A stretch of 20,262 bases of DNA from Prevotella sp. (GTDB taxonomy: Bacteria; Bacteroidota; Bacteroidia; Bacteroidales; Dysgonomonadaceae): positions 1-20,262 of the forward strand of contig JAISKQ010000313.1 of assembly GCA_031260865.1 (NCBI GenBank). The letters are read 5' to 3'. The position numbers and the translations under genes were made by a program. How positions within the stretch are numbered: the stretch's first letter is position 1; each line of letters begins with the position of its first letter. Under the pieces are notes generated by a model. The model made no database searches. It worked only from the letters and a program-made list of their open reading frames with translations, and had not been told where the DNA came from. Below are positions 8,022 through 10,570 of the stretch, in pieces.

Positions 8022-8060
8022 CTGCTTAATTATTCACAGCAACAAAACTATAATAATGTT

Positions 8061-8186
8061 TTATAACCCCAATTTTGTAAAATATTTTAAATCTTCTATT
8101 TTGTAATTATCAGGTAGTACATAGCCGTTTACCAAAATAGTAGGAGTAGCTCTCAACCCTGTTTGCTTTTTCCATGTTCCTTTTTT
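8061..8186 (-). pseudogene. C-terminal remnant of a DsbA/VKOR-thioredoxin-like protein
   Basis: The open minus-strand frame from 8186 to the stop at 8061 encodes 41 residues, with no start codon and a stop directly upstream. It contains TGLRATPTILVNGYVLPDNY followed by KIEDLKYF. A thioredoxin-fold cis-Pro motif (TPT) followed by VNGY.LP..YKIEDLKYF is what I recall from the C-terminus of thioredoxin domains fused to vitamin K epoxide reductase domains in Bacteroidetes peptide-export clusters. Only this tail remains; the CxxC helix and any membrane part are missing. It lies downstream of, and in the same direction as, the GG-leader precursor gene, which fits a decayed locus for disulfide-containing secreted peptides. 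The family match is from memory of the pattern and needs a search. Confidence 0.6.
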
Positions 8187-8208
8187 TTAGTTAATACAAT
8201 CGAATAAC

Positions 8209-8233
8209 CGAAACGGAAAATAATTCCGTTTCG
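8209..8233. repeat. 10-base perfect inverted repeat (hairpin)
   Basis: CGAAACGGAA (8209-8218) pairs perfectly with TTCCGTTTCG (8224-8233) around a 5-base loop. It lies between the thioredoxin-like remnant and the precursor peptide gene. No T-tract follows on either strand, so a terminator role is uncertain; a structural RNA or protein-binding site is equally possible. A weaker six-base pair, TGTTTC (8236-8241) with GAAACA (8254-8259), follows directly and reuses the same GAAAC word. Confidence 0.5.
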
Positions 8234-8263
8234 ACTGTTTCATTACTGTGTACGAAACATAAC

Positions 8264-8295
8264 AGATAGAAGAAAGAGCATTTTTTCTTCTATCT
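8264..8295 (-). terminator. Hairpin terminator after the precursor peptide gene
   Basis: AGATAGAAGAAA (8264-8275) and TTTCTTCTATCT (8284-8295) form a perfect 12-base stem with an 8-base loop. It lies 27 bases beyond the stop of the precursor peptide on the minus strand, which is the normal place for a terminator of that transcript. Confidence 0.6.
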
Positions 8296-8322
8296 TAAAT
8301 GATTATTTGCTAACATCATTTT

Positions 8323-8532
8323 TTAGTCTCCAAGACAGAAAATACATCCTTTCCAATTACCATTCTCGTAACACTCTACACCGCCTGGGATAGATTTACA
8401 CTCGCCATAACAAGTGATTGTTTCAGTATGCCCATTAATTTCAGCTTGTCCATATCCCCCTACGATGTTTTTCATTTCAACATCGTTCATTTCAAAAAAA
8501 ATTTTCAACTTTAAACTTTTCAATTTTCCCAT
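8323..8532 (-). CDS. Cysteine-rich precursor peptide with GG-Bacteroidales-type leader
   Basis: A 69-residue peptide. Residues 1-26 form a leader rich in Lys and Leu that ends EMNDVEMKNIVGG. The pattern (acidic residue)-M-K-N-hydrophobic-GG is that of the Bacteroidales double-glycine natural-product precursors (TIGR04149-like). Cleavage after Gly26 would release a 43-residue core starting YGQAEING. The core holds five cysteines at 41, 45, 54, 63 and 66, spaced C-x3-C-x8-C-x8-C-x2-C, and ends CIFCLGD. The odd cysteine number allows two disulfides plus a free thiol, a thioether link or a dimer. Such leaders are normally cut by the C39 peptidase of an ABC exporter, but no exporter, HlyD-like adaptor or radical SAM enzyme is present in this window. 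A TlpA-type lipoprotein gene lies 267 bases upstream on the same strand. The mature activity (bacteriocin, signal or other) is unknown. Confidence 0.75.
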   Translation of the reverse strand: MGKLKSLKLKIFFEMNDVEMKNIVGGYGQAEINGHTETITCYGECKSIPGGVECYENGNWKGCIFCLGD

Positions 8533-8799
8533 AAATAAATAGTTTTAAAAGATCAATAGTCAGTTTAAAAGTTAAATAATAAACAGATAAACAATAAAAT
8601 AAGTTTAATTTATTTGGTGAAAACCGAAGAAATTCGTATCTTAAAAGTATTGGTTGACAATCTTATGCTTTGAATATGATCCATACAATTTATGTTCGAT
8701 GTACAAAAATTGTATTAATTGTATTAACTGCATTATCAAATGTAAAAATAAATAAAAGAAACGCAACTTTATGCTTGAGATATTTATTTAGCGATAATA
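8533..8799. other. AT-rich intergenic region between the lipoprotein and precursor peptide genes
   Basis: This 267-base stretch has no convincing gene. Read on the minus strand, TAACTTTT lies about 35 bases before the precursor ATG, with a TTG roughly 17-20 bases further upstream. That is a weak match to the Bacteroidetes promoter and would allow the peptide to be expressed separately from the lipoprotein gene. A plus-strand open frame that starts at 8670 runs antisense into the lipoprotein gene and has no recognisable content. Confidence 0.35.
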
Positions 8800-10317
8800 T
8801 CAATAAAGGCTTTCAATCATATTCTTCATTGCTTCATTACCCGGATAACCGGTTAATTTTTCTTTCAACACATTGTTTTTGTCATAAATAAGATAACTTG
8901 GTATTCCATCAAAGTTAAAACTATCCATTATGTATCCCCATTCTTCTTGGGTCAGGTAATAATGCTCACTTCCAATTCCCGCAAGTTTTTCTTCCCATAA
9001 TTTATGTGGAGAAGTTTCACCGGATATATATACGAAAACAACATCTTTATCCCGCATGCTATCTTTTAGTTCTCTGGAATCGATTATGGCTTTAAGGCAA
9101 GGACTGCACCAAGTTGCCCAAAAATCAATCAAAACAACTTTTCCTTTATACTTGGATATAATAGCATCCATCAATTTTTCTTTCGCCACAGTCGGCGTTT
9201 CATTGATTACCAACTTTATTTTTTTGCTATTCAGTTTTATTATTTTCTCATTTTTCCTCAAAAGAATTTTTTCTATCTCTCCACCTTTAAAATAAGCATT
9301 AATATTGTTTCTTTGTTTCTCCGACAAAGGTTTTAACTCATTTTTGAATTGTAGCGCGTAAGCGTTAGAAATAAGTAGATCATAAAACAATCCCTCATCA
9401 AAACCGACTAAATCAGACAAAGTTTTCTTTACCTCTTTCAACCAGTTATCTATTGGCGTTTCGTTAATTGGAGGTATATTGAGCGTGTCATTTGATAATA
9501 TTTTTCCCATAAAATCAGTATGTTCGCCACAATATAAATATTGAGGATTGTTCAAGTCTAAATCTTTTAAAAAAGAATAATATGATTTGTCAGGCTGTTG
9601 TGGAGGAATAAAATCATTCCATTTTTCTTTTGAATTTGTTTGTTCAAAATTTACGACCATCTCTTGGCTGTAGTAAAAAACTGTATTTGCAATCCAACAT
9701 AATTTAAAATCATTTGTCATATAATTTTTAGCCTGTTGGGATAGATTTGTATCATTTACCACTACTTTTTCAATTCTATAATTAATATTATCCATTACAG
9801 ATTGGATGAAAAAATTAGGACTTTTATCATAAAGAGGTCTTATTCCGGTAATTAATAAAGTATCATAAAAACTATATTGATCCATTTTTATTAATAGATC
9901 AATACCGTTTGTAATATCGTATGAATTTAACGGAATACGACCTGTCATATCAACATTCATTTTGCCTGCTTCGCCAAAACTAATTTTCAGTTTGGTTTCT
10001 TCATTAACAGCTAAGCCAACGATGATAGTGGAATTAAAAAAATCCGAATAAAGAGTGGCTATTGCCAGATCAGTCTCAACCGGAACTATGAAAGAAAAAT
10101 TACCATCTTTATTTATTTGTGTTTTGAAAGTGGTTGGTTCTCCCGTAACCGGGTTATGAATAGATAAATTTAATATAGGCGTACCTTCTATGTTTTTTAT
10201 TATTTTGCCCGATATTTTAGCTATACCTTCTTTAACTTTAGGTTCAGGCAATGTATTTGTTGGTCGACAAGAAAATGATAGAATGCTGATTAGCAATAAG
10301 AATAATATTTTATTCAT
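8800..10317 (-). CDS. TlpA-type thioredoxin-domain lipoprotein
   Basis: Predicted envelope-anchored thiol-disulfide protein of 505 residues. The N-terminus is a lipoprotein signal (MNKILFLLLISILSFSC) with the lipobox cysteine at 17. Residues of about 30-130 resemble a beta-rich domain of the DUF4369 or carboxypeptidase-regulatory kind (ISGKIIKNIEGTPIL ... NKDGNFSF); I am not sure which. A long middle section, about 130-380, is mostly helical and unrecognised. The C-terminal thioredoxin domain (about 385-505) shows VVLIDFWATWCSPC, with the active-site cysteines at 404 and 407 and the cis-proline in GIPSYL near 473. The catalytic site is complete, so the protein is probably active. It lies upstream of the cysteine-rich precursor peptide on the same strand, so a role in reducing or isomerising its disulfides is possible but inferred. 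Similar lipoproteins are common and multi-copy in Bacteroidales. Confidence 0.9.
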   Translation of the reverse strand: MNKILFLLLISILSFSCRPTNTLPEPKVKEGIAKISGKIIKNIEGTPILNLSIHNPVTGEPTTFKTQINKDGNFSFIVPVETDLAIATLYSDFFNSTIIVGLAVNEETKLKISFGEAGKMNVDMTGRIPLNSYDITNGIDLLIKMDQYSFYDTLLITGIRPLYDKSPNFFIQSVMDNINYRIEKVVVNDTNLSQQAKNYMTNDFKLCWIANTVFYYSQEMVVNFEQTNSKEKWNDFIPPQQPDKSYYSFLKDLDLNNPQYLYCGEHTDFMGKILSNDTLNIPPINETPIDNWLKEVKKTLSDLVGFDEGLFYDLLISNAYALQFKNELKPLSEKQRNNINAYFKGGEIEKILLRKNEKIIKLNSKKIKLVINETPTVAKEKLMDAIISKYKGKVVLIDFWATWCSPCLKAIIDSRELKDSMRDKDVVFVYISGETSPHKLWEEKLAGIGSEHYYLTQEEWGYIMDSFNFDGIPSYLIYDKNNVLKEKLTGYPGNEAMKNMIESLY

Positions 10318-10350
10318 AAATTATTTTTTTAAAAGATTAAAGTTTAATAA

Positions 10351-10443
10351 TTAATACGTTACCGTTATATCCAATTTCTTAGGCTCTTTATTAACGATTC
10401 TTCTAATGAAGCCGTCTTGACTTTTGAAAAAAAGAGAAGAGCT
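10351..10443 (-). pseudogene. Short C-terminal remnant of an unknown protein
   Basis: The minus-strand frame from 10443 to the TAA at 10351 encodes 30 residues ending GFIRRIVNKEPKKLDITVTY. A stop lies directly upstream (10446-10444) and there is no start codon. The composition (a charged stretch followed by alternating hydrophobic residues) reads like a real protein C-terminus rather than random AT-rich sequence. I cannot name the family. It ends 33 bases before the lipoprotein ATG, which would suit a formerly co-transcribed upstream gene. It could still be chance. Confidence 0.35.
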
Positions 10444-10492
10444 TTATTGTTTCTTATGGCTGAATATATGTATTCTATTAAAAAAAATATTT

Positions 10493-10570
10493 CTAAAATT
10501 TTACATTTTTCATTTCGCTGTCACTCAAAAGAGTCGCATTCATTGAACTTAATTTATCCAAATTTTTCAT
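10493..10570 (-). pseudogene. Truncated leader-peptide ORF (degenerate GG precursor)
   Basis: An ATG at 10570 opens a 25-residue minus-strand frame, MKNLDKLSSMNATLLSDSEM followed by KNVKF and a TAG stop. LSDSEMKNV is the end of a GG-Bacteroidales leader, and it aligns with EMNDVEMKNIVGG of the intact precursor at 8323-8532. Here the reading stops exactly where the GG and the core peptide should follow, and no other frame restores a GG. It is therefore probably the surviving leader of a second precursor whose core was deleted. It is too short for standard gene callers. A conventional start-proximal segment (AAAGACAAAAAACT) lies upstream without a clear ribosome site, as is usual in this phylum. 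Confidence 0.55.

Follow-up and report, generated by a model that had tools for sequence, protein, structure and literature searches.

A double-glycine-leader peptide gene in a Prevotella sp. contig, likely the survivor of a decayed TIGR04149-type locus, and its mostly six-cysteine relatives

A small open reading frame in a contig of Prevotella sp. (JAISKQ010000313.1, assembly GCA_031260865.1) encodes a cysteine-rich peptide behind a double-glycine leader, and raises the question of whether it is a working precursor, the remainder of a lost peptide locus or a frame that arose by chance. The stretch of DNA analysed here, termed the window, is 20,262 nucleotides long. The first-pass annotation had described a 69-aa product with a leader ending in MKNIVGG, a 43-residue core and cysteines at residues 41, 45, 54, 63 and 66, all of which translation confirmed on the minus strand; frame 1 of the plus strand of 8323-8532 is interrupted by a stop. 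The features concerned are as follows.

8323..8532, minus strand: precursor gene, 69 aa plus stop (ORF translation; TIGR04149 at 20 bits)
8455..8532, minus strand: leader, residues 1-26, with EMKNIVGG at its end (translation, TIGR04149 match, alignment with relatives)
8326..8454, minus strand: core, residues 27-69, with 5 cysteines (translation, alignment, profile score)
8264..8295, minus strand: terminator-like hairpin 3' of the precursor gene (pattern scan only)
8067..8186, minus strand: relic, C-terminal tail of a VKOR-thioredoxin fusion (identity to relatives' proteins)
8800..10317, minus strand: intact thioredoxin-fold (TlpA/ResA-like) protein, 505 aa (Pfam Redoxin, Thioredoxin_8)
10493..10570, minus strand: relic, second TIGR04149-type leader, 25 aa, with no core (leader profile)

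A TIGR04149-type peptide locus has probably decayed here, and we consider the ORF its surviving precursor gene; the locus would have extended on the minus strand from about 10570 to 8067. The precursor, referred to as P0001, gave a single match in NCBIfam, TIGR04149 (E 4.5e-4, 20 bits), and none in Pfam. This score lies below the curated cut-off of 25 bits, so that the Bacteroidales double-glycine leader named in the first-pass annotation holds as a TIGR04149-like leader and falls short of a formal match; the relative P0010 scores 33.6 bits, above the cut-off. The feature of TIGR04149, an N-terminal EMKxxxGG leader and a subsequent core, is present in P0001. A profile made from the relatives' leaders placed 2 of the 413 stop-to-stop frames of the window above its inclusion threshold, with the precursor ORF at 12.0 bits, a score reached by 2 of 5000 shuffled P0001 leaders. 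From its leader and its setting, membership of P0001 in this leader family is firm, its score under the curated cut-off included. The high cysteine number is by itself weak evidence for a real precursor, at least five cysteines being found in 5 of the 105 window frames of 50-120 aa. A pattern scan detected three hairpins in the region where 0.9 were expected, whereas the promoter scan remained at chance level; PADLOC (two proteins), Rfam and tRNA scans were empty. A 10-pair inverted repeat at 8209-8233, between the precursor and the VKOR tail, may be a terminator or may mark where an element was lost.

The VKOR-thioredoxin tail adjoins the precursor downstream on the same strand, where roughly 40 codons are open. 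The tail shares 73% identity over 37 aa with a protein of the G016 genome and 55-79% over 36-40 residues with the C-termini of the proteins at loci L058, L059, L062, L063 and L153; matches to further proteins were weaker or shorter. According to Pfam, the copies of L062, L063 and L153 (the last cut by the locus end) contain C39-like, VKOR and Thioredoxin_4 domains, and the L059 copy VKOR and Thioredoxin_4 domains. Upstream of the precursor is the gene of the 505-aa thioredoxin-like protein, whose best relative in the genus, 51% identical, is located within the peptide cluster of genome G008, and further upstream is the second leader, which ends before its GG and scores 20.8 bits in the leader profile, higher than the precursor ORF. 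The first-pass annotation had reported no modifying enzyme in the window, a claim that the VKOR-thioredoxin tail (8186-8067) and the thioredoxin-like protein (8800-10317) do not bear out. No radical SAM/SPASM ORF was seen in the window by eye, and the HMM scan covered P0001 and the 505-aa protein. The GC content over 8060-10570 is 29.5%, against 39-45% in the flanking genes measured. Neither a precursor nor a thioredoxin gene followed the alcohol dehydrogenase in any of 20 relatives' stretches at E 1e-3, which indicates that the locus is lineage-specific, and the rpsP stretches of 18 genomes held no older copy of either gene. One record in a plasmid collection, from Phocaeicola massiliensis, had a 69-base match to the VKOR tail. 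An unannotated P. massiliensis record labelled a plasmid (L058, OY725986.1) encodes a C39-exporter-like ORF and a 101-aa ORF with the VKOR-thioredoxin tail; it also carries apparently chromosomal genes and is possibly a mislabelled piece of chromosome.

As the first-pass annotation had stated, no exporter is found in the window: by eye, no C39 exporter lies beside the precursor among the window ORFs. The genome-wide check that it proposed gave the same answer: the assembled genome, which is 74% complete, yielded no match to a C39 peptidase domain. A C39 domain was matched at E 0.1 in 17 of 25 genomes of the genus. The 745-residue ABC exporter is matched in the own genome from residue 164 onwards at the earliest, so that all these matches are without the peptidase part, and the VKOR tail is the sole match there to the L059 protein at E 1. 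Because the assembly is incomplete and divided into 335 contigs, an exporter may have been missed.

What such a locus looks like when complete is illustrated by the relatives. In G016 (contig C122), a VKOR fusion is followed by a precursor, a thioredoxin-like protein, LanC-like and glycosyltransferase-like proteins (both assigned by eye), a C39 ABC exporter and HlyD; upstream of this cluster, a short SPASM-like tail and a transposase-like ORF were seen by eye. G008 (contig C21, L063) groups a C39 exporter and a VKOR fusion with three precursors and with six thioredoxin-like proteins, all different from one another (L063, 1973-11426), and none of eight other ORFs scanned there matched radical SAM at E 1e-5. 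By eye, G013 (contig C18) has two radical SAM/SPASM-like ORFs between a TIGR04149 precursor and a C39 exporter, and on L178, a contig titled as a Porphyromonadaceae MAG, two precursors lie beside Porph_ging-type proteins (the second such ORF assigned by eye) and a CarbopepD_reg outer-membrane-type protein. Clusters of two kinds or more therefore make use of this leader family. Proteins of the GLPGLI/Porph_ging/PNGase_F-II_N type and CarbopepD_reg proteins lie beside precursors at L178 1102-1989, 2063-4684 and 5080-5988 and at L153 1919-2827, and could take part in immunity or in passage through the outer membrane.

In the intact relatives, the leader of the precursor would be recognised first, the cysteines would be oxidised by the C39-like/VKOR/thioredoxin fusion together with the thioredoxin-like proteins, and the precursor would then be cut after the GG and exported through the C39-peptidase ABC transporter and its HlyD adaptor. 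The product would be a small peptide held by disulphides, comparable to bacteriocins or signalling peptides. Judging from these families, the ancestor of the window peptide most likely took this route and then acted outside the cell against its neighbours or as a signal to them. The sequences show gene content: the leader, the two relics, the intact thioredoxin-like gene, no C39 exporter in the assembled genome, and the cysteine order of the relatives. We infer the order of these maturation steps, the disulphide pairing, any activity and the death of the locus.

The first-pass annotation had named an absence of homologues with the double glycine and the cysteines as an argument against its reading, and the searches bear it out for close homologues only. 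With P0001 as the single query, a search of 5.8 billion proteins gave nothing beyond the window's own entries, scans of viral and genome contigs matched stretches in which no relative was confirmed, and a 14-member profile against viral contigs likewise gave no confirmed relative; none of the protein, viral-contig and genome-contig searches yielded a close homologue usable for measuring selection. Profiles, on the other hand, do find relatives. The first with a shared leader and core came from 101 genomes of the family with weak E-values (matches at E 0.1 in 12 of the 101, own genome included; best other E 4.7e-4). At E 0.01 a four-member profile then matched 43 proteins, a count that includes the two entries of the window itself, and a 19-member profile matched 179, of which at least 120 were examined. 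Across the order, 12 of 393 genomes matched at E 0.01, the own genome included and the others weakly, and a scan of genome contigs with P0007 gave three loci, one being P0007 itself in the MAG of L178. TIGR04149 was matched by 19 of 19 members at E 1 and by 31 of 31 members at E 0.1. Three precursors (P0030, P0091 and P0103) come from MAGs called Tissierellia and Oscillospiraceae, and would represent contamination or cross-phylum transfer.

The relatives have near-constant leaders and hypervariable cores. From 131 proteins we retained the 128 with the leader pattern, the three without it being dropped, which gave 123 distinct cores; these are related to one another, so that counts over them are non-independent. 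Exactly six cysteines are present in 92 of the 123, and five in 5 of the 123, the window peptide included. The aligned members have in common the C-x-G-x-C motif, the last cysteine and, between them, a fourth cysteine spaced nine to eleven residues from the motif. The pattern C.{3,20}C...C.{4,30}C.{3,20}C.C fits 38 of the 123 distinct cores, all of them from relatives, and corresponds to the CS-alpha-beta order of insect defensins and scorpion toxins; the full cysteine order with GxC fits 25 of the 123. Because this pattern was devised with the seeds already in view, the count to rely on is 24 of the 104 cores outside the A4 seeds (three of which, P0004-P0006, had also been seen beforehand), whereas 300 rounds with shuffled cores gave 0.16 on average and never more than 2. 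Behind the same leader, P0026, P0067, P0071, P0080, P0086, P0092 and P0096 have their six cysteines in another order, which includes vicinal CC pairs; it is knot-like by eye and had no match among solved cysteine-rich peptide structures. One leader type carries several scaffolds.

Where does the odd cysteine number of the window peptide come from? Six residues ahead of the CxGxC cysteine, a further cysteine is present in P0007, P0009 and P0010 and absent in the window peptide, which seems to lack the first cysteine of the six-cysteine order; this is the simplest account of the odd number. The first cysteine is also absent in at least one other relative, P0045, and the second in P0012, so five cysteines need not mean decay. 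At the C-terminus two alignments can be drawn, one with C63-x2-C66 as the last pair and another with C63 as the last cysteine, which puts a lysine at the place of the relatives' fifth cysteine. In the relatives' core profile the window core scores 8.5 bits, reached by 15 of 2000 full shuffles, by 82 of 2000 with the cysteines fixed and by 30 of 2000 with the cysteines moved; with the four nearest relatives left out of the profile it scores 5.3 bits, reached by 54, 230 and 99 of 2000, respectively. The match of the window core to the relatives' cores is therefore suggestive at the level of sequence, and a place for the peptide in the six-cysteine branch is probable. Less certainly, the core would belong to the branch with the order C1-xn-C2-xxx-C3-xn-C4-xn-C5-x-C6. 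Defensins pair their cysteines 1-4, 2-5 and 3-6, and if the pairing were the same here, the lack of a cysteine at the C1 place would leave C4 unpaired. The first-pass annotation had found the spacing to match no scaffold known to it; the order does resemble a known one, the relatives being mostly six-cysteine peptides with many in the order C..CxxxC..C..CxC.

With these data the status of the frame can be weighed. A chance ORF resembling a GG precursor would agree with the sub-threshold family score and with the missing close homologues, but the leader outscores 4998 of 5000 shuffles and two further pieces of the same kind of cluster lie nearby, which makes this account very hard to believe. 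A working orphan, expressed and matured in trans by an exporter and an oxidase whose genes lie in the quarter of the genome that is not assembled, with five natural cysteines of which one is free or dimerising, deserves more attention and is still unlikely in our view: the precursor ORF and its thioredoxin-like neighbour are intact, only 74% of the genome is assembled and other five-cysteine members exist, yet a cut-down second leader and a VKOR tail adjoin the precursor, and the assembled part of the genome has neither a C39 domain nor a second VKOR fusion. The first-pass annotation had left the choice between maturation in trans and a relic undecided; the truncated leader, the VKOR tail and the missing C39 domain favour the latter, and the window copy is probably a relic. 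The intact precursor ORF and thioredoxin-like gene are the counterpoint to decay. The thioredoxin-like family is common away from peptide clusters, so that its link to the locus may be due to chance; among ten other stretches listed for its relatives, one (L096) adjoins a VKOR fusion.

The relatives' cores recall peptides of the CS-alpha-beta kind. We compared A6, 31 hand-picked precursors without P0001, with A8, 19 hand-picked precursors with the same leaders and other cysteine orders. The A6 profile matched 46 PDB sequences at E 10 (best E 0.0014, with the cysteines aligned one-to-one), 43 of which are by name scorpion toxins, defensins or similar, the other three being carnobacteriocin B2, a cell-wall hydrolase and ribosomal protein L28. 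A 19-member profile that includes P0001 gave 33 matches, 27 of which we class as being of the CS-alpha-beta kind. By contrast, the control with reversed cores gave no PDB match, and the A8 control gave 20, none of them CS-alpha-beta, and no match to Toxin_3. Against Pfam Toxin_3, P0120 scores 26.0, above the cut-off of 21.5, and P0014, among the nearest to P0001, 18.6; at E 1 the NCBIfam actinodefensin model is matched by 4 of 19 members (lowest E 1.9e-4), and at E 0.1 by 6 of 31. Among the 19 A4 members, all with weak E-values, two leader-type bacteriocin models were matched more often than Toxin_3: Antimicrobial17 by 8 and L_biotic_typeA by 7, against 5 for Toxin_3. The window peptide itself, with five cysteines and a CxxC end, departs from the six-cysteine order C..CxxxC..C..CxC, has GGVEC instead of GxC (the gamma core) before the fourth cysteine, and its core alone had no match in the PDB; judged by its sequence, it fails the defensin features tested.

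Whether the relatives share the fold as well as the spacing is a finer question, and there is close to an even chance that their six-cysteine cores adopt another disulphide fold (EGF-like, knot-like or new) that has only the CS-alpha-beta spacing. AlphaFold models of P0010 and P0120 contain strands and at most a three-residue helix ahead of CxxxC, which does not show the CS-alpha-beta fold, and they had no significant match among solved structures (top for P0010: copsin, E 1.5); the helix stretch is moreover glycine-rich (CxGxC). These models are of low confidence, with mean pLDDT of 65.6 and 63.1 (71-80 and 56-85 in ten-residue blocks of the cores) from alignments of 19 and 37 sequences, and another fold would also have to accommodate PDB profile matches that are almost all CS-alpha-beta with aligned cysteines, controls that lack them, and a P0120 score above the Toxin_3 cut-off. 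The family name of TIGR04149 (GG_sam_targ_CFB) suggests instead a radical-SAM-modified RiPP, whose cysteines would donate their sulphur to thioether links instead of forming disulphides. Radical SAM neighbours of TIGR04149 precursors have been described (PMC4573289, as far as the accessible text goes), and the SPASM/radical SAM-like ORFs of G013 and the SPASM-like tail of G016, all seen by eye, fit with this, but no such ORF was seen by eye in the window or detected in the eight G008 ORFs scanned, VKOR and thioredoxin genes are present instead, and an even cysteine number is near-constant in the relatives (six in 92 of 123); we regard this explanation as improbable. The EMKxxxGG leader is common to TIGR04149 and the window copy, which differs in its score under the cut-off and in having no radical SAM enzyme seen adjoining, and several relatives' loci have the VKOR-thioredoxin fusion.

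Among known systems, the bacteroidetocins, class IIf bacteriocins related to class IIa, would offer the nearest worked-out parallel to the maturation proposed here. According to the available part of their description (PMC6671954), they too come from Bacteroidota, have a GG leader and an ABC peptidase transporter, with a thiol oxidoreductase gene in most regions and cysteine-bearing mature peptides of 42-48 aa; their leaders are 15-16 aa long, compared with 24-26 in most members here and 26 in P0001, and bacteroidetocins A and B have four cysteines and others at least two, compared with six in most relatives here. P0001 itself departs from them in its leader length and in the lack of a nearby ABC peptidase transporter. 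The bacterial cis-defensins actifensin (PMC6989792), actinomycesin (PMC8819291) and xanthusin (PMC11561630) share, in the text accessible to us, C..CxxxC..GxC..CxC with the relatives and differ from them in leader, maturation genes and phylum. For bacterial defensin-like peptides, PMC8819291 gives actinobacteria and myxobacteria as sources, and PMC11561630 gives myxobacteria and proteobacteria together with single other cases; the main texts of both papers, as available, contain no word beginning with Bacteroid-. The accessible text of a survey of Bacteroidales RiPPs (PMC10352776) has no mention of defensin, VKOR or disulfide, and no title or abstract start among the matches listed from the open literature, which excludes preprints and most subscription papers, names a Bacteroidota defensin-like family. 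The survey of Dash 2019 with 147 bacterial CS-alpha-beta sequences, cited in the part of PMC6989792 available, may include Bacteroidota ones. The leader family with six-cysteine cores may be new.

Our broader proposal, made tentatively and short of even confidence, is that Bacteroidales may produce a hypervariable set of six-cysteine mini-proteins, akin to a toxin library, on one nearly constant double-glycine leader, that a large branch of them may be truly CS-alpha-beta and folded by a dedicated C39-like/VKOR/thioredoxin oxidase, that many Bacteroidota peptides listed as 'rSAM-modified RiPP' may be disulphide peptides, and that the window peptide would be a decaying member. Bacteroides are said, in the accessible text of PMC6671954, to be without a general disulphide-formation machinery, which makes the role of a cluster-borne oxidase directly testable. 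If true, a defensin-like lineage in Bacteroidota that brings its own oxidising enzymes would matter for how defensins arose and would provide six-cysteine scaffolds as a natural library behind a single leader; TIGR04149 peptides could then no longer be expected to be radical-SAM products.
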